Source: Clostridiales bacterium (GTDB lineage Bacteria > Bacillota > Clostridia > TANB77 > SIG350). From it: DNA of 64,000 bases. Positions within the stretch are counted from its first letter, which is position 1. Every line of letters begins with the position of its first letter. Made by a program: the position numbers and the translations under genes. The DNA is taken from NCBI GenBank assembly GCA_015056545.1, contig SVGE01000001.1, positions 219,906 to 283,905 of the forward strand. The letters are read 5' to 3'. The notes under the pieces are model-generated. The model did no database searches. It was not told where the DNA came from and saw only the letters and a program-made list of their open reading frames with translations. This document shows positions 3,982 through 63,550 of the stretch, in pieces.

Positions 3982-5368
3982 TTAGATACCCTCTTTCAAT
4001 AATAGCGTTTTCAATTTCAGCTGTATATGCTATTGCCTCTTCTTCACTTTGAACTTCAAGCATTATACGAATAACAGGTTCTGTACCACTTTTCCTAAGT
4101 AATACTCTTCCCTTACCACCTATTTTTTCTTCAATTTCTGAAAGCTTTGCTAAAACTATTTCATCATTCATTACTTCATCCTTATTCTTTACTTTAACAT
4201 TTTTTAAATATTGAGGATAAAGTTTTACAGGACTTGCAAGAGTAGCTAAAGTTGACTTTTTATCACATACTTCTTCTGCAAGCATTATTGCAGTAAGAAG
4301 TCCATCTCCTGTTGTTGCATACTTTTTGAGTATAATGTGACCAGACTGTTCTCCACCAAGAGTATAATTATTTTTTTGCATACATTCATACACAAATCTG
4401 TCACCAACAGTTGTTTGCACACAATTAATTCCTATATCTTTTAATGCAGATATAAAACCCGTATTAGACATTATTGTAGCAACTACTGTATCGTTATTAA
4501 GTATTCCTCTATCCTTTAATCTTTTACCCAAAATATACAGCATTTTGTCACCATCAACAATATCTCCATTTTCATCAACAGCAATACATCTGTCTGCATC
4601 TCCATCAAAAGCAAAACCCATATCCAAATGATTTTCTACAACAAGTTTTTGAAGTTTTTCAATATGTGTAGAACCACATTCTTTATTAATATTAGTTCCA
4701 TCAGGTTCATTACCTATTATCATCAATTTTGCACCTAAAGCACTAAAAACTGATTTTGCTATCATCCATAAAGCTCCATTTGCTGCATCAAGACCTATTT
4801 TTAAGTCTTTGTATGAATGTGATGCAATAGATATTAGATATCCTAAATATCTATTTCTTCCTGATGAATAGTCAATAATACAACCTATATTTTCTTTTTG
4901 TGCATAAGGTAAATCTTCAGAGACTATTCCTAATTCTTCTAAATTACCATCTAGATATTCTTCAATTAATTCAGTAGTATTATCATCAAGCTTTTCTCCA
5001 TATTTATTGATAATTTTTATACCATTATCATAAAAGGGATTGTGTGATGCAGTAATCATAATACCACAATCAAATTCATCCTCTCTTGTTACATATGATA
5101 CACTTGGTGTTGTTGTTACATGAAGCAAATATGCATCTGCACCAGAAGCTGTTAATCCTGCAACAATTGAATATTCAAGCATATAACTTGAACGACGTGT
5201 ATCTTTTCCAATAACAATTTTCGGTCTATATATTTCTCTTTCACAACCTGAAAATTTTGAAGAATAATACCATCCTAAAAATCTTCCTACCTTGTAAGCT
5301 TGAAAAGCTGTTAAATCAATATTAGCTTCTCCTCTAAAACCATCTGTTCCAAAATATTTATTAGCCAT
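3974..5368 (-). CDS. glmM: Phosphoglucosamine mutase
   Basis: Converts glucosamine-6-phosphate to glucosamine-1-phosphate for peptidoglycan and other amino-sugar polymers. At 464 residues it is of normal length for the alpha-D-phosphohexomutase family. It shows the phosphoserine loop ITASHNP (Ser108), the metal loop DGDADR (about 255-260), the sugar-binding GEQSGH loop and the phosphate-binding RKSGTEP motif. The N-terminus KYFGTDGFRG is typical of GlmM. AAGGAGG precedes the ATG by 8 bases. It forms an operon with the overlapping beta-helix acetyltransferase gene downstream. Confidence 0.95.
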   Translation of the reverse strand: MANKYFGTDGFRGEANIDLTAFQAYKVGRFLGWYYSSKFSGCEREIYRPKIVIGKDTRRSSYMLEYSIVAGLTASGADAYLLHVTTTPSVSYVTREDEFDCGIMITASHNPFYDNGIKIINKYGEKLDDNTTELIEEYLDGNLEELGIVSEDLPYAQKENIGCIIDYSSGRNRYLGYLISIASHSYKDLKIGLDAANGALWMIAKSVFSALGAKLMIIGNEPDGTNINKECGSTHIEKLQKLVVENHLDMGFAFDGDADRCIAVDENGDIVDGDKMLYILGKRLKDRGILNNDTVVATIMSNTGFISALKDIGINCVQTTVGDRFVYECMQKNNYTLGGEQSGHIILKKYATTGDGLLTAIMLAEEVCDKKSTLATLASPVKLYPQYLKNVKVKNKDEVMNDEIVLAKLSEIEEKIGGKGRVLLRKSGTEPVIRIMLEVQSEEEAIAYTAEIENAIIERGYLNE

Positions 5369-54671: not shown

Positions 54672-57332
54672 TTATTCATAATCACCATCAACTGCATAAA
54701 CATTAATATCATCTTCATCTTCTGTATCCTCATTATTTGCTATTTTATTCAAATGAAAACTAAATACATTATTTTTCTTTTCTTCTTGCTCAACATTTTC
54801 TTCTATTTTTAATTCATCTATTTTTGTTTCATCATTATTGTTTATTGTAACTGTTTCATTTACTACAGTATTATCTACTTGCTCTTCAACATTATTTGTA
54901 TTATTACTTCCCATCTTAATTTCTTGAAGTTCTTGTCTTGAAATTAATACTTGTCTTGGTTTACTTCCATCATATCCAGATATTATACCTCTTGCTTCCA
55001 TTTGATCAATTATTCTACCTGCTCTTGCATAACCTACTTTAAATTTTCTTTGTATCATTGAAGCAGAAGCTTGCCCCATTTCAACAACTAAATCTATAGC
55101 TTGTGGCAATAATTGATCAGCATCACTTGCTTCCTCTGGATCTGGAGCTTTTTGATCAGCTTTTTCAATCTTATCTATTATTGTATCATCATAAACAGCT
55201 GTTGAATTAGATTTAATAAATTCAACTATACTTTCAATTTCTTTTTCAGATACAAAAGCACCTTGCAGTCTTACAGGTTTTGATTTACCAGTTGGATAAT
55301 ATAACATATCTCCTTTACCTAATAATTTTTCAGCACCTGTTGTATCTAAAATTGTTCTTGAGTCTATTTGTGAAGAAACTGCAAATGCTATTCTTGATGG
55401 AATATTAGCTTTAATTATACCTGTAATAACATCAACAGAAGGTCTTTGTGTAGCAATAACTAAATACATACCTGCTGCTCTTGCCATTTGTGCTAATCTA
55501 CAAATTGCATCTTCAACTTCATTTGCTGCAACCATCATTAAATCTGCTAACTCATCTATAATTATAACTATTTGAGGAAGTGTACCTTCTTCATTTTCTC
55601 TTTTTAATGCTTCATTATATCCTTTTATATCTTTTACTCCTCTTTGAGCAAATAAGTTATATCTCATTACCATTTCTTGTACTGCCCAATTTAGAGCACC
55701 AGCTGCTTTTTTAGGATCTGTTACAACAGGAATTAATAAATGTGGAATTCCATTATATATACCTAATTCAACAACTTTTGGATCTATCATTAACAATTTT
55801 ACTTCATTTGGTTTAGCTTTATATAGTATACTTGTAATAATTGTATTTATACATACACTCTTACCAGAACCTGTTGCACCAGATATTAACATATGAGGCA
55901 TTTTTGCAATATCTGATATTTCTATATCACCTGCAATATCTTTACCTAATGCATAAGATAATTTAGATTTTGCATCTCTAAATTTATCTGTTTCAATAAG
56001 TTCTCTTAATGTTACCATATCTGTTGCTTTATTTGGAACTTCAATACCAACAGCTGCTTTGCCTGGTATTGGAGCTTCAATACGAATATTAGATGCTGCT
56101 AAATTAAGTGCTATATCATCTGCTAAATTAACTATTTTACTTACTTTTACGCCTGCATTTGGTTGTATTTCATATCTAGTAACAGATGGACCTCTTGCAA
56201 CATCAACAACTTTTGCATCAACACCAAAGCTATCCAATGTTGATTGAAGTTTTTCAGCTGTTTTCTTCATTTCTTCAGTAGCATTTTGACTATTATTATT
56301 CATTCCCATATTAAGCAAGTCTATTGATGGGAATACATATTCTTCATCATGTCTTTCTATTTCATTATGACTAATCTTTAATTCTTCTTTTCTATTTAAT
56401 TCTTCTTTTTCTTCTTGAATTTGTTCTTTTGTTTTAGTTTTAAATATTTCATTTAAATCCCCTACTTTATCTTCAACAGTTTTAGAAATATTATTAACTT
56501 GCTGAGTTATATTATTATTTACTTCTTTATTTATTTCTTCATTTACTTTATTAATTGTATTAACCTTTTTCTCTTCATCTTTATTATCTAAAAAATCAAA
56601 AGTTAATTGTGAACTAATAAATGTATTTTTTCTCTTTTCTCTTTTTTGTTCCTCTATACTTTCGTTATTTTGTCTCATATTTTCTTTTCTAACATTATGC
56701 TCTCTATGTGGCACTTCTCTTTTTATTTCATTATTATTTATTAAACCAAATATATTTCCAAAGAAAGTTCTTATTCCTTCTAATATTACATTTGGCATTA
56801 TACCAGTTGTTAAAACAAACATAATAGATAATAATGCAATAAGAATTATTAATGTTGGTATTTTTCCAAACATTTCATAAAATGGCATTGTTATAAGGCC
56901 ACCTATAAGTCCTCCATCTTTTAAGTTTATTCCATTTTCATATAATAATGATACATTATGTGAAAAATCTAAGTTAGTATCAAACGAATAATTCATCCAA
57001 GATAACACACCAGATAAAATCATTATTAATATAACAGACTGAACTAGTTTAGGTTTTAATACTTCTTTCCCATTCATCATTCCATATATACCTATAATAC
57101 TTATAACTATTGGTATAACAAACTTAATATTGCCAAATAACCCACCTAAAATATTAGACAATATTAAACTTAACTTTCCATCAGTTGTCATAAATACTAT
57201 TACCCCTAAAAAAACACCAATAAAACAAGTAACAACACTTGAGATATTTTTACTTTCATAATTTGTATGTGTTTTTCTAGAATTCTCTTTTGCAATAGTA
57301 GATTTATTTTTACTACCTTTTCTTCTTCCCAT
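54672..57332 (-). CDS. ftsK: DNA translocase FtsK/SpoIIIE
   Basis: 886 residues. Four N-terminal membrane segments (about 30-190), a long acidic and Asn-rich linker (about 205-340), then the RecA-like motor with Walker A GATGSGKS (about 484-491), Walker B VIIIDELADLMM and QRPSVDVITGIIKANIP, and the C-terminal winged-helix gamma domain (QASASMIQRKFKVGYARAGR). It pumps DNA across the septum in division and, in spore-formers, into the forespore. The extreme C-terminus is another acidic tail. GGAGGT precedes the ATG. Confidence 0.95.
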   Translation of the reverse strand: MGRRKGSKNKSTIAKENSRKTHTNYESKNISSVVTCFIGVFLGVIVFMTTDGKLSLILSNILGGLFGNIKFVIPIVISIIGIYGMMNGKEVLKPKLVQSVILIMILSGVLSWMNYSFDTNLDFSHNVSLLYENGINLKDGGLIGGLITMPFYEMFGKIPTLIILIALLSIMFVLTTGIMPNVILEGIRTFFGNIFGLINNNEIKREVPHREHNVRKENMRQNNESIEEQKREKRKNTFISSQLTFDFLDNKDEEKKVNTINKVNEEINKEVNNNITQQVNNISKTVEDKVGDLNEIFKTKTKEQIQEEKEELNRKEELKISHNEIERHDEEYVFPSIDLLNMGMNNNSQNATEEMKKTAEKLQSTLDSFGVDAKVVDVARGPSVTRYEIQPNAGVKVSKIVNLADDIALNLAASNIRIEAPIPGKAAVGIEVPNKATDMVTLRELIETDKFRDAKSKLSYALGKDIAGDIEISDIAKMPHMLISGATGSGKSVCINTIITSILYKAKPNEVKLLMIDPKVVELGIYNGIPHLLIPVVTDPKKAAGALNWAVQEMVMRYNLFAQRGVKDIKGYNEALKRENEEGTLPQIVIIIDELADLMMVAANEVEDAICRLAQMARAAGMYLVIATQRPSVDVITGIIKANIPSRIAFAVSSQIDSRTILDTTGAEKLLGKGDMLYYPTGKSKPVRLQGAFVSEKEIESIVEFIKSNSTAVYDDTIIDKIEKADQKAPDPEEASDADQLLPQAIDLVVEMGQASASMIQRKFKVGYARAGRIIDQMEARGIISGYDGSKPRQVLISRQELQEIKMGSNNTNNVEEQVDNTVVNETVTINNNDETKIDELKIEENVEQEEKKNNVFSFHLNKIANNEDTEDEDDINVYAVDGDYE

Positions 57333-57349
57333 TTATTTACCTCCATATA

Positions 57350-57402
57350 TTAAAAAAGTTATGCTAATTTAGGAGTATATAAAACCCTTAAACAACATAA
57401 CT
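57350..57402 (-). terminator. Probable terminator between the coiled-coil gene and ftsK
   Basis: On the minus strand AGTTATG and CATAACT close a stem extended by mostly G-U pairs and followed by six T, just before the ftsK ribosome site. Confidence 0.55.
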
Positions 57403-57416
57403 CTTAAATCGCTTTT

Positions 57417-57857
57417 TTATCTTAATTCTCTTCTGTTACTTTGAACAATTTCTAAATTAGTAGCTAATGCTTCTTCTATTTTAGCTAATATCTCATCAGC
57501 ATATTCTTTTGTTCCTTGAGATATTTCTCTAGCCATTGCATTTGCACTATCTATTATAGCTGCTTTTTGTTCATATGCTTTTCTTGTAATTTCATGTTCA
57601 TCTATCATAGATATAATTCTACTTTCAGCTTCTTTAACAATTTCACCAGCTTCTTTTTGTGCATCTAATAAAATTCTTTGTCTTTCTTCTTTTACCCATT
57701 TAGCTTGTTTTATTTCATCTGGTAATTTTATTTTTATATCTCTTATAATTGATAATAATTCTTCTTTATCATATAGACATTTACTTGTAAATGGCAATCC
57801 ATTTCCTTTATCTAAAATATCTTCTAATTCATCTAATAATGATAATACCTCGTTCAT
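57417..57857 (-). CDS. Coiled-coil protein of unknown function
   Basis: 146 residues, almost all helical, with a heptad-like Glu/Lys/Ala-rich stretch (about 50-135) including RQRILLDAQKEAGEIVKEAESR. This looks like ATP-synthase subunit b/H or DivIVA-type coiled coils, but no specific family can be claimed. It lies 12 bp behind rsmD and before ftsK; homologous small coiled-coil genes are often found beside rsmD in Clostridia. Confidence 0.72.
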   Translation of the reverse strand: MNEVLSLLDELEDILDKGNGLPFTSKCLYDKEELLSIIRDIKIKLPDEIKQAKWVKEERQRILLDAQKEAGEIVKEAESRIISMIDEHEITRKAYEQKAAIIDSANAMAREISQGTKEYADEILAKIEEALATNLEIVQSNRRELR

Positions 57858-57869
57858 AAACTACTCCTT

Positions 57870-58418
57870 TCAATTGAATATAGATATCTTAACTATTCCA
57901 TATTCTCTTTCATCACATAAATTAAACTTTCCAATATTATGTGGTATATTTTCTTCTATATTTGTTTCTAAAATTATATAACCATTTTCATTTAGTAAAT
58001 TAAATTTACTTATTAACTCTATAGCATCCACACCAAATCCTTTATTATATGGTGGGTCTAAGAATATTATATCAAATTTTATATTTTCATTAACTAATTT
58101 TTCTAAAGCTTTTTTATATTCTAAATTTAAAACTTTAGATTTATCAGAAAACTTGCACTTTTCTATGTTTTCTCTAATAACTTCACATGCTTTTGAAGAA
58201 TTATCACAAAAAACTGCAAATTCTCCACCTCTGCTTAATGCTTCTAATCCAAGATTACCACTACCTGCAAATAAATCTAATATATTTTCATAATCTACAC
58301 CTTTAGCCATTAATATATTAAATAATGACTCTTTTACTCTATCTAGTGTTGGTCTTGTATTTTCACCTTCTAATGTATTTAGTTTTAAACCTCTTCTTTG
58401 TCCTGAAATAATTCTCAT
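57870..58418 (-). CDS. rsmD: 16S rRNA (guanine(966)-N2)-methyltransferase
   Basis: 182 residues. RsmD N-terminus (RIISGQRRGLKL, TRPTLDRVKESLFNIL), SAM-binding motif ILDLFAGSGNLGLEALSRG and the catalytic LDPPYNKG (DPPY near residue 120) are all present. Methylates G966 of 16S rRNA. AGAGGT precedes the ATG. Confidence 0.94.
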   Translation of the reverse strand: MRIISGQRRGLKLNTLEGENTRPTLDRVKESLFNILMAKGVDYENILDLFAGSGNLGLEALSRGGEFAVFCDNSSKACEVIRENIEKCKFSDKSKVLNLEYKKALEKLVNENIKFDIIFLDPPYNKGFGVDAIELISKFNLLNENGYIILETNIEENIPHNIGKFNLCDEREYGIVKISIFN

Positions 58419-58487
58419 AACTACCTCTTACACTTATATTTTAATACTTTTTTAAAAGATGTCAATAGTATTTTACTAAATTTAATA

Positions 58488-58543
58488 TTTTCGTAATATA
58501 TCTGTAATATATATTACGTAATATTACAGTTTTTTTACGAAAA
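58488..58543. repeat. Compound inverted repeat
   Basis: Outer arms TTTTCGTAA (58488-58496) and TTACGAAAA (58535-58543) enclose inner arms CTGTAATAT (58502-58510) and ATATTACAG (58521-58529). It lies upstream of rsmD and downstream of the pilin-like gene's terminator. Function unknown. Confidence 0.6.
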
Positions 58544-58585
58544 GTAAAAAAAGAAACAGTATGTAAATACTTTCATACTGTTTCT
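58543..58585 (-). terminator. Intrinsic terminator of the pilin-like gene
   Basis: AGAAACAGTATG (58552-58563) and CATACTGTTTCT (58574-58585) form a 12-bp stem, followed on the minus strand by TTTTTTTAC. Confidence 0.88.
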
Positions 58586-58621
58586 GCATAAAATTTCTTT
58601 TATATATTAAATTCTAAAATA

Positions 58622-59839
58622 TTATTGTAATTGCCAAGCAGAAGATGCACTAGATCCATCCCCTGTATTTGTCGCTGATAGTGCTACATTTGAATTTAGT
58701 ACAACTATAGGACGTCCTGGATGTCTTAGACTTTCTTGATAACCATCTGTTGCATTAAAGATACCCCCATCACGATCTATATATTTATTATTTATAATTT
58801 TTAAACCTGTTATATCAAATGAATCTACTAAAGTTGTATAACCATATGTTGAAGAAAGCCAATAAACACCATTAAATATCAACTCATATTCTTTTTCATG
58901 TCCTTCCTTAAAATTTTCTCCATTATAACTATAATATGTCACGGGTACAGCCCTAATAACTGTTCCATATTCTATTTCTATACCAGTATTTTCTTCACTC
59001 TCATCATAATATATTTTTACATCGTCTCCTATTACTACTTCCATTGCTTCATTAACATCATCTTCATTAAGATTTCTAGCTGTTCCTACTCCAGATTTAC
59101 TATATAATGTATCATATATTTCATCTAATTTTGCTGGACCATTAGTATACCCTAAGTCACCACCTAAACCAATATTATCTATTGGTGTTTCACTAATCAA
59201 TGTTACTTGATTTCCATCATTTTTTAATACTCTCCAATTTACTGTCTGTCTTGTTATTTCTTGATCTATAAAAGCAACATTATCACCTAGCATATAACTA
59301 GTTTGTCCGTCTTCACTTATATAATATCCACTATCTGTTCCTAATAATGTATATGTTAATTCATCATTACCTGGATTATATGCTACATAATGCCCTACTT
59401 CTAGCCCCTCTACCTTTGCTAATAAAATGCCAGTTCCTGCATTTTCTCCTATCCCTAATTCTGAAAGCCATGTGCTATAGGGTGCTTCAGTTCTACTTCC
59501 TAATACTATCTCTCCATTACTTATTGCTATTAAATCTTTATATTCTTCTTTAAATTCGGGGATTATTTCTTTGATTTTTTCATATTCTGTTTCATTATAT
59601 AATCCGCCTTCTCCATTTCCGGTTGCTAAATTAATCATATTTTCTGCATTCTTTACTGCTAGTATTTCTTGATATGTTCTTATATCACTTTTAAATACTG
59701 CCTCTTTTGCCTTTTCTATTATTCCACCTTCCATAAATGTAACAATTACTGCTGCTGTTAATATTATTAACACAATTATTGTTACAATTAGTGCAACTAA
59801 GCTTATACCTGATGTTTTACTATTCTTTAAATTTTTCAT
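58622..59839 (-). CDS. Pilin-like surface protein with a type III signal
   Basis: 405 residues. The N-terminus KTSG|ISLVALIVTIIVLIILTA matches a prepilin (class III) signal: a basic leader, a Gly before the cleavage point (residue 11) and a long hydrophobic helix. Unlike canonical type IV pilins it has no Glu at mature position 5. The large C-terminal region (about 170-405) is beta-rich, with NWRVLKNDGNQVTLISE and GVYWLSSTYG as in DUF6273-like surface modules, ending in a Ser/Thr/Gly-rich piece and AWQLQ. Probably an exported, cell-surface protein. Strong SD (AAGGAGGAG) and own promoter and terminator. Confidence 0.8.
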   Translation of the reverse strand: MKNLKNSKTSGISLVALIVTIIVLIILTAAVIVTFMEGGIIEKAKEAVFKSDIRTYQEILAVKNAENMINLATGNGEGGLYNETEYEKIKEIIPEFKEEYKDLIAISNGEIVLGSRTEAPYSTWLSELGIGENAGTGILLAKVEGLEVGHYVAYNPGNDELTYTLLGTDSGYYISEDGQTSYMLGDNVAFIDQEITRQTVNWRVLKNDGNQVTLISETPIDNIGLGGDLGYTNGPAKLDEIYDTLYSKSGVGTARNLNEDDVNEAMEVVIGDDVKIYYDESEENTGIEIEYGTVIRAVPVTYYSYNGENFKEGHEKEYELIFNGVYWLSSTYGYTTLVDSFDITGLKIINNKYIDRDGGIFNATDGYQESLRHPGRPIVVLNSNVALSATNTGDGSSASSAWQLQ

Positions 59840-59887
59840 AATCTTTTCTCCTCCTTAAAATTTAATCTTTTGTTATTACACAATTTT

Positions 59888-59916
59888 ATTGTATAACACT
59901 TTTAGTTTTAGTTCAA
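59888..59916 (-). promoter_or_regulatory. Promoter of the pilin-like gene
   Basis: Minus strand TTGAAC (59911-59916), 17-base spacer, TACAAT (59888-59893). Confidence 0.65.
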
Positions 59917-60019
59917 CTGTTTTGTTGTAGTTTTTTTATTTTTCTTTTTACTACCTCCTTCCTCGGCTCTTTATTTTATTATTGCCAAAATATATTTTTA
60001 TATAATTGGGCAAAACAAA

Positions 60020-60067
60020 AGAACCTAAGACTACATTACGTTTTCTCGTAATATATTCTTAAGTTCT
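60020..60067 (-). terminator. Hairpin terminating the G-tract transcript
   Basis: Imperfect 21-bp inverted repeat with a six-base loop (60041-60046), followed on the minus strand by TTTTGTTTTG. Confidence 0.6.
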
Positions 60068-60105
60068 CTATGTTTTTTGGCATGTCAATTAAAGATGTTT
60101 TTATA

Positions 60106-60171
60106 CTATAAACATCCCCCCCCCCTAGTATTTAGCACTTTCTGGCACTTTTGTTTAGGTTTATTTGACAT
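60106..60171 (-). CDS. Small ORF interrupted by a ten-G homopolymer
   Basis: ATG at 60171 with AGAGGTG upstream encodes MSNKPKQKCQKVLNTR, then Gly codons made by ten consecutive G (60116-60125 on the plus strand as C), ending at TAG after 21 codons. With nine or twelve G the frame would run on through DVYSIKTSLIDMPKN to a TAA inside the terminator hairpin, giving 44 or 45 residues. The frame-extending sequence is codon-like. Homopolymer length could also be an assembly error. Confidence 0.35.
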   Translation of the reverse strand: MSNKPKQKCQKVLNTRGGGCL

Positions 60172-60197
60172 TTTTTTACACCTCTTTTCTGTTTGTA

Positions 60198-60226
60198 ATA
60201 TTATCATAGGTGGTTTAACTTTTCAA
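60198..60226 (-). promoter_or_regulatory. Promoter of the G-tract transcript
   Basis: Minus strand TTGAAA (60221-60226), 17-base spacer, TAATAT (60198-60203). Confidence 0.6.
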
Positions 60227-60264
60227 GTACTTTTTCTCTTTAATCTACAAATTTCGCTAAATAG

Positions 60265-60293
60265 TTGATTTTCAGCTAAAAAAATTATATAAT
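60265..60293 (+). promoter_or_regulatory. Promoter of the GH26-like gene
   Basis: TTGATT (60265-60270), 17-base spacer, TATAAT (60288-60293). Confidence 0.78.
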
Positions 60294-60325
60294 TTGTGTG
60301 CTAAAAATAGTTTTGGAGGTTATTT

Positions 60326-62155
60326 ATGAAAATACAATATATACAATATAACTCAAGTAATTTTAAGAAAGTAAAAAAACGCAAAAAACATTCTTTTCTT
60401 AGAATATTAATAACATTATTTATTATACTAATTATATTAGCTATTGCTGGATATATAGTATTAGGAAATATGTATACTTTTGAAAAATTAAATAATAAAA
60501 TATATTCAACTGTTAATACTGTTATTTCTAAAATAGTTAATAAAGCAAGTTTAACTTTTAAAGATATTAAAGGTGAAAATGATATATATTTAGGAATTAA
60601 TAAAGAAAGTTGCAGTGAATATCATTTTGTTGATGGAAATTGGTATGAAAACGAAAGTTTTACTAATTTAACTGTTAATAATGAAAGTGATGTAAAAACT
60701 ATAATTGAATATGATAATAAACAAAGATTAGTAAATTATCCAGATGGATATTATGTGGATTTTCAAAATATATTAGATTATGATTTTTCATTATCTCTAG
60801 ATTATATTGTTGGATATAAAGATAACTATAATGTTACATTATCTATTGAACACTCACCATATGATGATGTTACATGGTATATAAATCATTATCAAAATAG
60901 ATTTTATTTAAGTGAAGAATATAGAAATGAAAATAATATAACATTGGTTAATAATGAAACAAAAGAAATTAATGGTAAACAAGTAATTTTGCTTACTTTA
61001 ACAAGAAATACAGATAGTAATGAATATCCATATAAAACATATACATATGCATATATTCTTTTACATGATAAAACATATGCTAGATTTATGTTTAAGACAG
61101 ATAGTTATTCTGAAGAATATATGAATAGCTGTATTAATACATTAAACTCTTTTAAAGAAATATCTAAAAAATATACAGCTAATTATCATATAAATTATGA
61201 ACCTACTCCAAATCCTAATTGGGGACCAAAAACAACAGAGTTATATAATAAATATTTAAATAGCAATGAAATAGATTTCGGTATTTTTTCTGGAAATAAT
61301 GGTATCTATTCCTCTATTCCAGATATTGAATACAAATTAGAAAATGATTTTGATATAGTTTTAATATATAATCATTTTGGTAATACTTTAGATTTAGATA
61401 CCATCGATGAAATTACTTATGATGATAAAGCAGTGGAATTAACAGTTCAAACTTGTGTAAGTAACAATGAAAAACTATTTGGCTATACTCCTATCTTTGA
61501 TATTATTGATGGTAAAAAAGATGATGAAATTAGAGAATTAGCTTTTGAACTTACATGTTGTAATTGTCCAATATTGTTTAGATTAAATAATGAAATGAAC
61601 TCTGATTGGACAAGTTATTCTGGAATACTCGGTTTAAGTGATCCAGATATATATAAAGCTGTTTGGAAAAGAATATATAATATATTCCAAGAAGAAGGTG
61701 TAAAAAACTGTATTTGGATATATAACCCAAATGATAATAATTATCCACCAAATAAATGGAATAACTTTTTAGCATATTATCCTGGTAATGAATATGTTCA
61801 AATGATAGGTGTTACAGGATATAATACTGGGACATATTATGCTGAGCAAAATGCTGAAAAATGGAAAGAATTTAAAGATATCTATAATGAAATACAAGAA
61901 AAATATCAGCCACATTTTAGTAAATTCCCATGGATAATAACTGAATTTGCTAGTAGTTCAGTTGGTGGAGATAAAGCTAAATGGATAGAAAATATGTTTA
62001 ATAATATATCTAATTATCCAAATATAAAAGCTGCTGTTTGGTTTAATTCTGCTGACTATAATCCTGAAAATGGTGAAGTATCTAGACCATATTGGTTAAC
62101 TGAAACAAATGAAACTTTAAATGCATTTAAAAATGGATTAAAAAATTTTAAATAA
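60326..62155 (+). CDS. Membrane-anchored GH26-like glycoside hydrolase
   Basis: 609 residues. Basic N-terminus, a membrane segment (about 26-50), an uncharacterised extracytoplasmic domain (about 70-290) and a C-terminal TIM-barrel-like domain (about 305-605). This contains RLNNEMNSDW (Glu423, expected acid/base) and WIITEFASSS (Glu540, expected nucleophile), 117 residues apart, as in family GH26 (beta-mannanase/xylanase). The RxxHE motif of GH26 has Asn in place of His here. Likely acts on an extracellular polysaccharide outside the membrane. GGAGGT precedes the ATG; divergent from the pilin-like gene. Confidence 0.8.
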   Translation: MKIQYIQYNSSNFKKVKKRKKHSFLRILITLFIILIILAIAGYIVLGNMYTFEKLNNKIYSTVNTVISKIVNKASLTFKDIKGENDIYLGINKESCSEYHFVDGNWYENESFTNLTVNNESDVKTIIEYDNKQRLVNYPDGYYVDFQNILDYDFSLSLDYIVGYKDNYNVTLSIEHSPYDDVTWYINHYQNRFYLSEEYRNENNITLVNNETKEINGKQVILLTLTRNTDSNEYPYKTYTYAYILLHDKTYARFMFKTDSYSEEYMNSCINTLNSFKEISKKYTANYHINYEPTPNPNWGPKTTELYNKYLNSNEIDFGIFSGNNGIYSSIPDIEYKLENDFDIVLIYNHFGNTLDLDTIDEITYDDKAVELTVQTCVSNNEKLFGYTPIFDIIDGKKDDEIRELAFELTCCNCPILFRLNNEMNSDWTSYSGILGLSDPDIYKAVWKRIYNIFQEEGVKNCIWIYNPNDNNYPPNKWNNFLAYYPGNEYVQMIGVTGYNTGTYYAEQNAEKWKEFKDIYNEIQEKYQPHFSKFPWIITEFASSSVGGDKAKWIENMFNNISNYPNIKAAVWFNSADYNPENGEVSRPYWLTETNETLNAFKNGLKNFK

Positions 62156-62168
62156 ACCAAAAAAAATA

Positions 62169-62197
62169 TTGACTTGTTAGCTCATAAGTGATAATTT
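62169..62197 (+). promoter_or_regulatory. Promoter of the 62224-62751 gene
   Basis: TTGACT (62169-62174), 17-base spacer, TAATTT (62192-62197). Confidence 0.6.
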
Positions 62198-62223
62198 ATA
62201 TACTGTAATTGAGGTGAAAATAA

Positions 62224-62751
62224 TTGAAAAAAAATATAAAAATAAAACCATTTAAACTTGGTTTAAATATATGGTTTTCTGAACTTATAAATATGTTAGT
62301 ATTTTTTGCACTAGCATTTATAGTAATTCTTATATCAGTAAATATTCTAAAAATAGATTTATTATCTATTTTGGGAACATATGTAAAAATATTTATTATT
62401 GGACTTGGATATATTGGGATAGCAATGGGAGCATATAATTCATATAGATCTTACTCAGAATATGAAACTTATATTCCTAAGTCTACCAAATATTATTGCG
62501 CCCTACTTCAATTAATAATATTCGGTCTAATTGGATATGTATTTTATACATTTTCTGTTGATGTAATATTATTTATTGGTATATATTTAACAATATTTGT
62601 AGCATTTGCATTTAATACATTATTAATAGGTTTAAATAATAAAAAATATCCTAAAGAAACAAGGAAAAAGAAAACAAATAAAAATTTAGAACATAAAGAA
62701 ACAAACAGTGATAACAATTCTCATATGATAGATATTGATTTATTAAAATAA
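62224..62751 (+). CDS. Hypothetical membrane protein with TTG start
   Basis: 175 residues with four hydrophobic segments (about 25-45, 52-70, 88-108, 110-132) and a polar, Lys/Asn-rich tail ending MIDIDLLK. TTG start with GAGGTG eight bases upstream. No family is recognised. Monocistronic, with its own promoter and a strong terminator. Confidence 0.7.
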   Translation: MKKNIKIKPFKLGLNIWFSELINMLVFFALAFIVILISVNILKIDLLSILGTYVKIFIIGLGYIGIAMGAYNSYRSYSEYETYIPKSTKYYCALLQLIIFGLIGYVFYTFSVDVILFIGIYLTIFVAFAFNTLLIGLNNKKYPKETRKKKTNKNLEHKETNSDNNSHMIDIDLLK

Positions 62752-62754
62752 ATC

Positions 62755-62793
62755 AAAAGTAGTAAGTAAAATTAATCTTTACTTACTACTTTT
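62755..62793. terminator. Bidirectional terminator between convergent genes
   Basis: AAAAGTAGTAAGTAAA (62755-62770) pairs perfectly with TTTACTTACTACTTTT (62778-62793). Confidence 0.9.
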
Positions 62794-62797
62794 TTGT

Positions 62798-63550
62798 TTA
62801 TTGTTCTTTTTCTTTTAAACAGTATTCCTGAAAATTTGCATTTTCTTTAATTGTTTTTTTAGTTTTCCATAATGGAACTATTTCGTATGCAACTTTTGCA
62901 TATACTGGCTTAAATTTAAACTTCCCATCAAGAACACCCATAAAAAGTTTCATTTTTTCTTTTTCAGTTCTTTCTTTTTTGGTGTGTCGTAACACTGCAT
63001 CAAAATCATCAATAACTCTTATATATACAAAACCTCTTGATAAAAGCTCTTCCCACTCATCATTGATACGCTTTATAACCTTATACAAATCTTCATAATC
63101 TTCAAACATCATAGCTTTACGAATTTTATCATAATTTAAATCTTTAGATGATCTAAAATTACGACATATTTGATTTGTTTCCAAAATTCTTTTTATACAG
63201 CACATTTTTGTCTCATCATGAAACATTTTTCTTTGTGTAACATCATCAAACCAATCATATAGCAAATTAAAAATTGCTTCAATAGCTTTTAACTCTCTCT
63301 TACCTATTTTTCTTCCTTCTATAGTATTCATAGATAGATAATATATCATTTCTGTAATACGAAATAGTTCATAATCTACTTTACTATTTGTAATATTATC
63401 TGTCGTAAAATTTTGCTCCCGAAATTTTTTAAAATATTTTCTAATAAATGGTTCAATTTCCTTAGCACATCTTACGTAATAATATCTATTACTTCCAAGA
63501 ATGCACTCAGTCTCTCTTCCTAAAATATGATGATAAGTATTGCTATTCAT
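62798..63550 (-). CDS. Hypothetical protein
   Basis: 250 residues, soluble, mostly helical, rich in Lys/Arg/Glu. A Cys pair (MCCIK) lies near 117 and no domain is recognised. CTAGGAGG precedes the ATG. Its own promoter is TTGAAT-17-TATAAT (63628-63656). Codon use again looks a little less AT-extreme than the housekeeping genes, like the other orphan genes at 10901-12761 and 35288-36313. Confidence 0.72.
   Translation of the reverse strand: MNSNTYHHILGRETECILGSNRYYYVRCAKEIEPFIRKYFKKFREQNFTTDNITNSKVDYELFRITEMIYYLSMNTIEGRKIGKRELKAIEAIFNLLYDWFDDVTQRKMFHDETKMCCIKRILETNQICRNFRSSKDLNYDKIRKAMMFEDYEDLYKVIKRINDEWEELLSRGFVYIRVIDDFDAVLRHTKKERTEKEKMKLFMGVLDGKFKFKPVYAKVAYEIVPLWKTKKTIKENANFQEYCLKEKEQ

Follow-up and report, generated by a model that had tools for sequence, protein, structure and literature searches.

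This locus raises the question of what a run of ten G residues is doing inside a very small open reading frame in AT-rich DNA. The window, meaning the whole stretch of 64,000 nucleotides analysed here, carries ten consecutive C on its plus strand at 60116-60125, exactly where the original prediction had put them. The claim that such a run is improbable also holds, because the window contains no second run of at least eight C or G, and its three matches to an eight-base C or G word compare with a mean of 0.08 in dinucleotide shuffles. We consider it likely that the element around this run is a phase-variable, translation-coupled transcription attenuator of a prepilin-like gene.

The window leader and its proposed function

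On the minus strand the element begins with promoter-like boxes (60198-60226), TTGAAA (60226-60221) and TAATAT (60203-60198) separated by 17 nt, which were found by consensus scan in a region conserved among the aligned copies of the element. They are followed by an alignment-conserved ribosome site, GAGGTG (60179-60184), and by a leader ORF of 21 codons and a stop (60171-60106; MSNKPKQKCQKVLNTRGGGCL), so that the predicted minus-strand ORF with its ribosome site is present. The G10 tract (60116-60125, minus strand) lies within it. Translation of the window and its paralogues gives the products that had been forecast, 21 residues with ten G and 44 residues ending in the hairpin with nine, and an altered tract of eleven G gives 23. 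The short frame is the predicted OFF frame; the long frame, open at 9 or 12 G, reads the spacer and part of the hairpin (60036-60105, minus strand), comprises 44-45 residues and stops just beyond the hairpin loop. The terminator-like hairpin itself (60020-60067, minus strand; -22 kcal/mol on folding), with a T-rich tail behind it (TTTTGTTTTG), is conserved in all full copies and starts 38 nt after the short-frame stop of the window copy. It is absent from the output of a strict terminator scan, and an Rfam scan of 57000-63000 returned no match, even at E = 1. Behind it lies a minus-strand ORF for a prepilin-like protein of 405 amino acids (58622-59839; N-terminus SGISLVALIVTIIVLIILTAAVIVTF), the predicted switched gene. 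The consensus scan also gave a promoter-like match at 59916-59888, between the hairpin and this gene, which could therefore have a transcription start of its own. On the other side, the leader promoter is adjoined by a divergent gene (60326-62155) with a glycosyl hydrolase family 26 domain.

The 21-residue peptide is not the switched product but a leader predicted to gate the terminator before the prepilin-like gene, and the key point of the original prediction is its remark that one frame ends in the terminator stem. The simplest reading of the arrangement is ribosome-dependent antitermination set by tract length. What was obtained directly is the anatomy of the leader, the number of its copies, their tract polymorphism, the frame rule and the association with genes; to these we add a model in which termination, ribosome-dependent read-through, switching within the population and surface display are proposed steps. 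RNA polymerase would start at the leader promoter, followed by a ribosome that starts the leader ORF; in most copies, the window copy with its ten G included, the ribosome should halt about 20-40 nt before the hairpin, whereupon the terminator would fold and the prepilin-like gene would be off. Slipped-strand mispairing at replication would bring the tract to a length that selects the third frame, for most copies 9 or 12 G; in that frame the ribosome would enter the hairpin, stop in it or just past it and cover its 5' arm, so that the terminator would stay unfolded and the prepilin-like gene would be transcribed. With about 30 loci switching independently, each cell lineage may display its own small subset of pilin-like proteins. 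According to PMC4824070, repression of an intrinsic terminator is almost complete when it lies a few bases downstream of a gene that is translated, in line with the proposed antitermination.

Copies of the leader, tract length and reading frame

The view from one tract was too narrow, since the window tract is one of 31 leader copies in the genome from which it comes (G000, 1.45 Mb in 17 contigs). A scan with FtsK places the organism in the Clostridia, the relatives at 61-62% identity being MAGs classified in that group. Runs of at least ten G or C occur there at about 20 places, all in the same sequence context, and inclusion of shorter tracts brings the family to 31. A single search of this genome and its relatives found no run of nine G in 50 of 57 genomes. 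The only remaining runs of nine G in G000 are at two sites in different sequence, both on contig C14 (L132 at 978 and L133 at 8556); these are two copies of another element outside the leader family, in which the run (C9 on the opposite strand) sits in a possible hairpin (ATGTCCCC/GGGGACAT). The aligned leader copies have in common the promoter-like boxes, the ribosome site, the ORF, the hairpin and, behind it, the first part of a prepilin-like gene; the leader start, the ribosome site and KVLNTRGGG are kept in all of them. The prepilin-like N-terminus has 31 matches in the genome, 29 of which form the main family; a leader stands before all 26 main-family genes with upstream DNA, the remaining three (L036, L037, L040) being at contig ends. 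Five leaders (L014, L015, L018, L021, L043) are likewise at contig ends, with the gene cut off. A pattern search found no leader for the two divergent prepilin-like matches (C9:185393 and C13:27428). Exact-pattern scans of GTDB and IMG/VR contigs found the leader core in no other species, and the DNA matches in relatives are to unrelated genes and cover only their promoter and start region.

Upstream of the tract the ORF measures 46 nt in 31 of 31 copies, with no indel. The tract has 7 G in one copy, 8 in five, 9 in four, 10 in 19, 11 in one and 13 in one, lengths that come from the assembly and could in part reflect homopolymer errors (L023 is counted at 10 G; an A-to-G change lengthens its run and leaves the frame unchanged). 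Judged from sequence, a variable tract beside an indel-free 46-nt ORF is a slippage signature, as left by replication slippage, although the copies compared are paralogues within one assembly and paralogous variation is not population variation. Of the two possibilities originally raised, phase variation or programmed frameshifting, the slippage expected under the former is supported by tracts of 7-13 G between near-identical paralogues and by a G9 to G8 difference between loci L199 and L201 (see below). Frameshifting is unnecessary, and low-level slippage at the G tract during transcription or translation is conceivable.

The tract-to-hairpin spacer is 46-49 nt long in the G000 copies. Each of the 30 full copies has one frame that continues past the tract and across the 5' arm of the hairpin, with its stop in the hairpin or behind it, which generalizes what had been noticed for the window copy; the other two frames stop before the hairpin, after 20-26 residues. 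The long, predicted ON frame is set in four of the 30 (L026, L029, L035, L043), fewer than one third (P = 0.012 assuming independent copies, which they are not), and the window copy is predicted to be OFF. Shuffling of the G000 spacers leaves one frame open by chance in 32% of cases, so that it is the features taken together, and the same design in other genomes, that carry the weight. The G000 spacer has no codon-position bias.

The same design does recur elsewhere in Clostridia. In G003, from another family of the order, there is a leader family without similarity to the window leader, with tracts of 7-10 G, in about 11 copies before secreted proteins (L121-L129 and L146-L156); the genes behind mostly have a secretion-signal-like start. 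The N-termini of these leaders are widely divergent and the design is kept. Their tract-to-hairpin distances take the values 40, 43, 46, 49 and 52, with L153 and L156 corrected for one T that is missing next to the tract. All 11 copies agree modulo 3; as the distances differ by multiples of three, the long frame is in step in every copy. This constancy argues more strongly than any other observation for translation of the long frame. One copy in G003, L126/L152, is in that frame. Two leaders of this design with G9 (L130, L131) in G007 precede canonical type IV pilin-like starts (KGFTLVELIIVIAIL), and further such leaders (L199, L201, L202, L206, L207) occur in g64, a genus from another family of the class. 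Here apparently one locus in two species has G9 in L199 and G8 in L201, with two frames passing the hairpin and one stopping early; L199, L201 and L207 lie upstream of large secreted proteins. These unrelated leaders of the same design suggest that such attenuators may have arisen repeatedly and may be a general control of surface protein families.

Most class-level pattern matches are without leader architecture. A candidate in G121 (L141) was dropped and carries no weight, because all three of its frames are open. In two candidates from related genomes (L139, L140) the G runs are inside long ORFs, by eye glycosyltransferase-like and membrane acyltransferase-like, and these are probable classical contingency loci.

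In another version of the attenuator, RNA polymerase or the ribosome would slip on the G run, in a programmed or leaky manner, with a fixed low read-through at each locus and no heritable switching as the outcome. A hairpin behind a G run makes a plausible slippery site, and 19 of the 31 copies have exactly 10 G; a programmed site would, however, be expected to hold one length, and tract length varies both between copies and between two species, so that we regard this version as improbable. We give little credit to the idea that the product is the conserved 21-residue peptide, a signal or small functional peptide with the G run as its glycine codons: the conservation of the start, the ribosome site and KVLNTRGGG in all copies would suit it, but 9-10 of 31 copies have a broken frame behind the tract, the leaders of G003 keep the design while their N-terminal parts diverge freely, and the copies are located upstream of prepilin-like genes. 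It is equally hard to credit that homopolymer length errors in a repeat family produced the pattern as an assembly artefact. The tracts are long homopolymers and contigs break at several copies, yet the 31 prepilin-like matches have no internal stop, the indels are concentrated at the tract with none in the 46-nt ORF, and the pattern recurs in independent genomes (G003, g64).

The prepilin-like proteins and a diversity-generating retroelement

Heritable switching by the attenuator would act on a family whose pilin character is so far indicated by a prepilin-like N-terminal motif (GISLVALIVTIIVLIIL), seen by eye in an alignment of 15 paralogues. No Pfam or NCBIfam family matched the window protein, and the curated pilin model N_methyl matched L035 with an E of no better than 3.7. 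Structure prediction from the single sequence gave the window protein a mean pLDDT of 35, with only the N-terminal helix usable. The genome encodes, at L212 (contig C13, 18500-30500), two T2SSE-family ATPases, a PilC-like protein, an A24-type peptidase and minor-pilin-like proteins, the components of a type IV pilus machine, whose genes adjoin a leader-pilin copy; assembly of the prepilin-like proteins into pili is putative. Many of these proteins have a hypervariable domain at their end. In two members, L161 and L169, BspA-type leucine-rich repeats (Pfam LRR_5) replace the lectin-like end.

The genome has one reverse transcriptase, on contig C1, together with a template repeat and a bAvd-like protein whose score is just under the Pfam cut-off. 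This diversity-generating retroelement (L211, C1:70500-78500) comprises the leader-pilin target L035, a MutS_I-like ORF, the bAvd-like ORF, the template repeat (4943-5039, minus strand) and the reverse transcriptase, and the leader-pilin copy beside it, L035, is in the long frame. Compared with the template, the dispersed genes L031, L033 and L035 have changes at 24-27 of 44-46 adenines; away from the adenines each has a single change. Four further genes (L034, L158, L167, L173) match the template less cleanly, as older targets would. The window protein is 51-54% identical to the targets L031, L033 and L035; alignment of its gene with the template repeat is at noise level, with no detectable variable repeat. 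Retroelements with a single template repeat and many variable repeats are known (PMC6642488), and the one found here resembles known systems in its reverse transcriptase, accessory protein, template repeat and adenine-specific target changes; unlike in those, its targets are dispersed paralogues that also bear a phase-variable leader.

This arrangement also bears on the last alternative, in which the G run would form a quadruplex, as in the Neisseria pilE-type system, and serve as a recombination signal for antigenic variation by gene conversion. The position of the tract, before a multigene pilin-like family whose members have a constant 5' part and a variable 3' part, recalls such a system, but there is a single run of 7-10 G in place of four separated runs, each complete copy has a promoter and a leader of its own and so is not a promoterless silent cassette, and the variation in the best-preserved tips is made by the retroelement, which leaves this reading with next to no credibility. 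Returning to phase-variable attenuation, we see an even chance that a two-layer system exists, in which the retroelement would hypermutate the tips of some prepilin-like members and about 30 poly-G attenuators would randomly choose the members displayed, the unrelated leaders of the same design pointing to repeated origin and general control. The link to the retroelement would unite two kinds of diversity generation in one protein family.

Relation to known phase-variation systems

As in classical poly-G contingency loci, slippage in a homopolymer is proposed to shift a reading frame, and the genes concerned are surface-related. Unlike in those loci, the tract is in a separate leader, neither in the coding sequence nor in the promoter spacing of the regulated gene, and the regulated protein is never frame-shifted. 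In Mycoplasma gallisepticum the multigene vlhA surface family has a switch upstream of each copy that depends on the length of a GAA repeat, located in the promoter region and working through protein binding. The family described here resembles vlhA in that each member has its own repeat-length switch upstream, and differs from it in the use of leader translation and a terminator.

The terms looked up for a leader-attenuator mechanism do not occur in a 2025 review of phase variation (PMC11868660). About 30 loci in a single genome, and leaders of like design but unrelated sequence in other Clostridia, suggest that leader attenuators may be a common and overlooked means of surface variation in uncultured bacteria. 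The model predicts that leader tract lengths vary and that expression of the gene behind follows the length modulo 3.

The closest parallel is Streptococcus gallolyticus, in which leader-peptide phase variation was shown with mutants for the pil1 pilus locus and reported for pil3 (Danne et al. 2014, PMC3894217). There the short frame stops 39 and 49 nt before a premature terminator, similar in geometry to the 38 nt of the window copy, and the long frame has its stop in or near the terminator, with the pilus gene behind (PMC3894217). In both cases a short ORF with its own ribosome site lies between the promoter and a surface gene, a simple repeat inside it changes the frame and is polymorphic in unit count (here between paralogues), and the short frame ends upstream of the hairpin, the long one in or beyond it. 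The leaders have no sequence relation, and the GCAGA repeats of S. gallolyticus are absent here, implying a shared working principle and not common descent. Further differences are a G mononucleotide tract in place of GCAGA units, about 30 loci per genome against the two pilus loci of one Streptococcus, and prepilin-like proteins, in a system known from sequence only, against sortase pili. The kind of mechanism is already known; what is new is its proposed operation through a mononucleotide tract, its predicted presence at about 30 loci in one genome, its association with prepilin-like proteins and the action of a diversity-generating retroelement on some of them.
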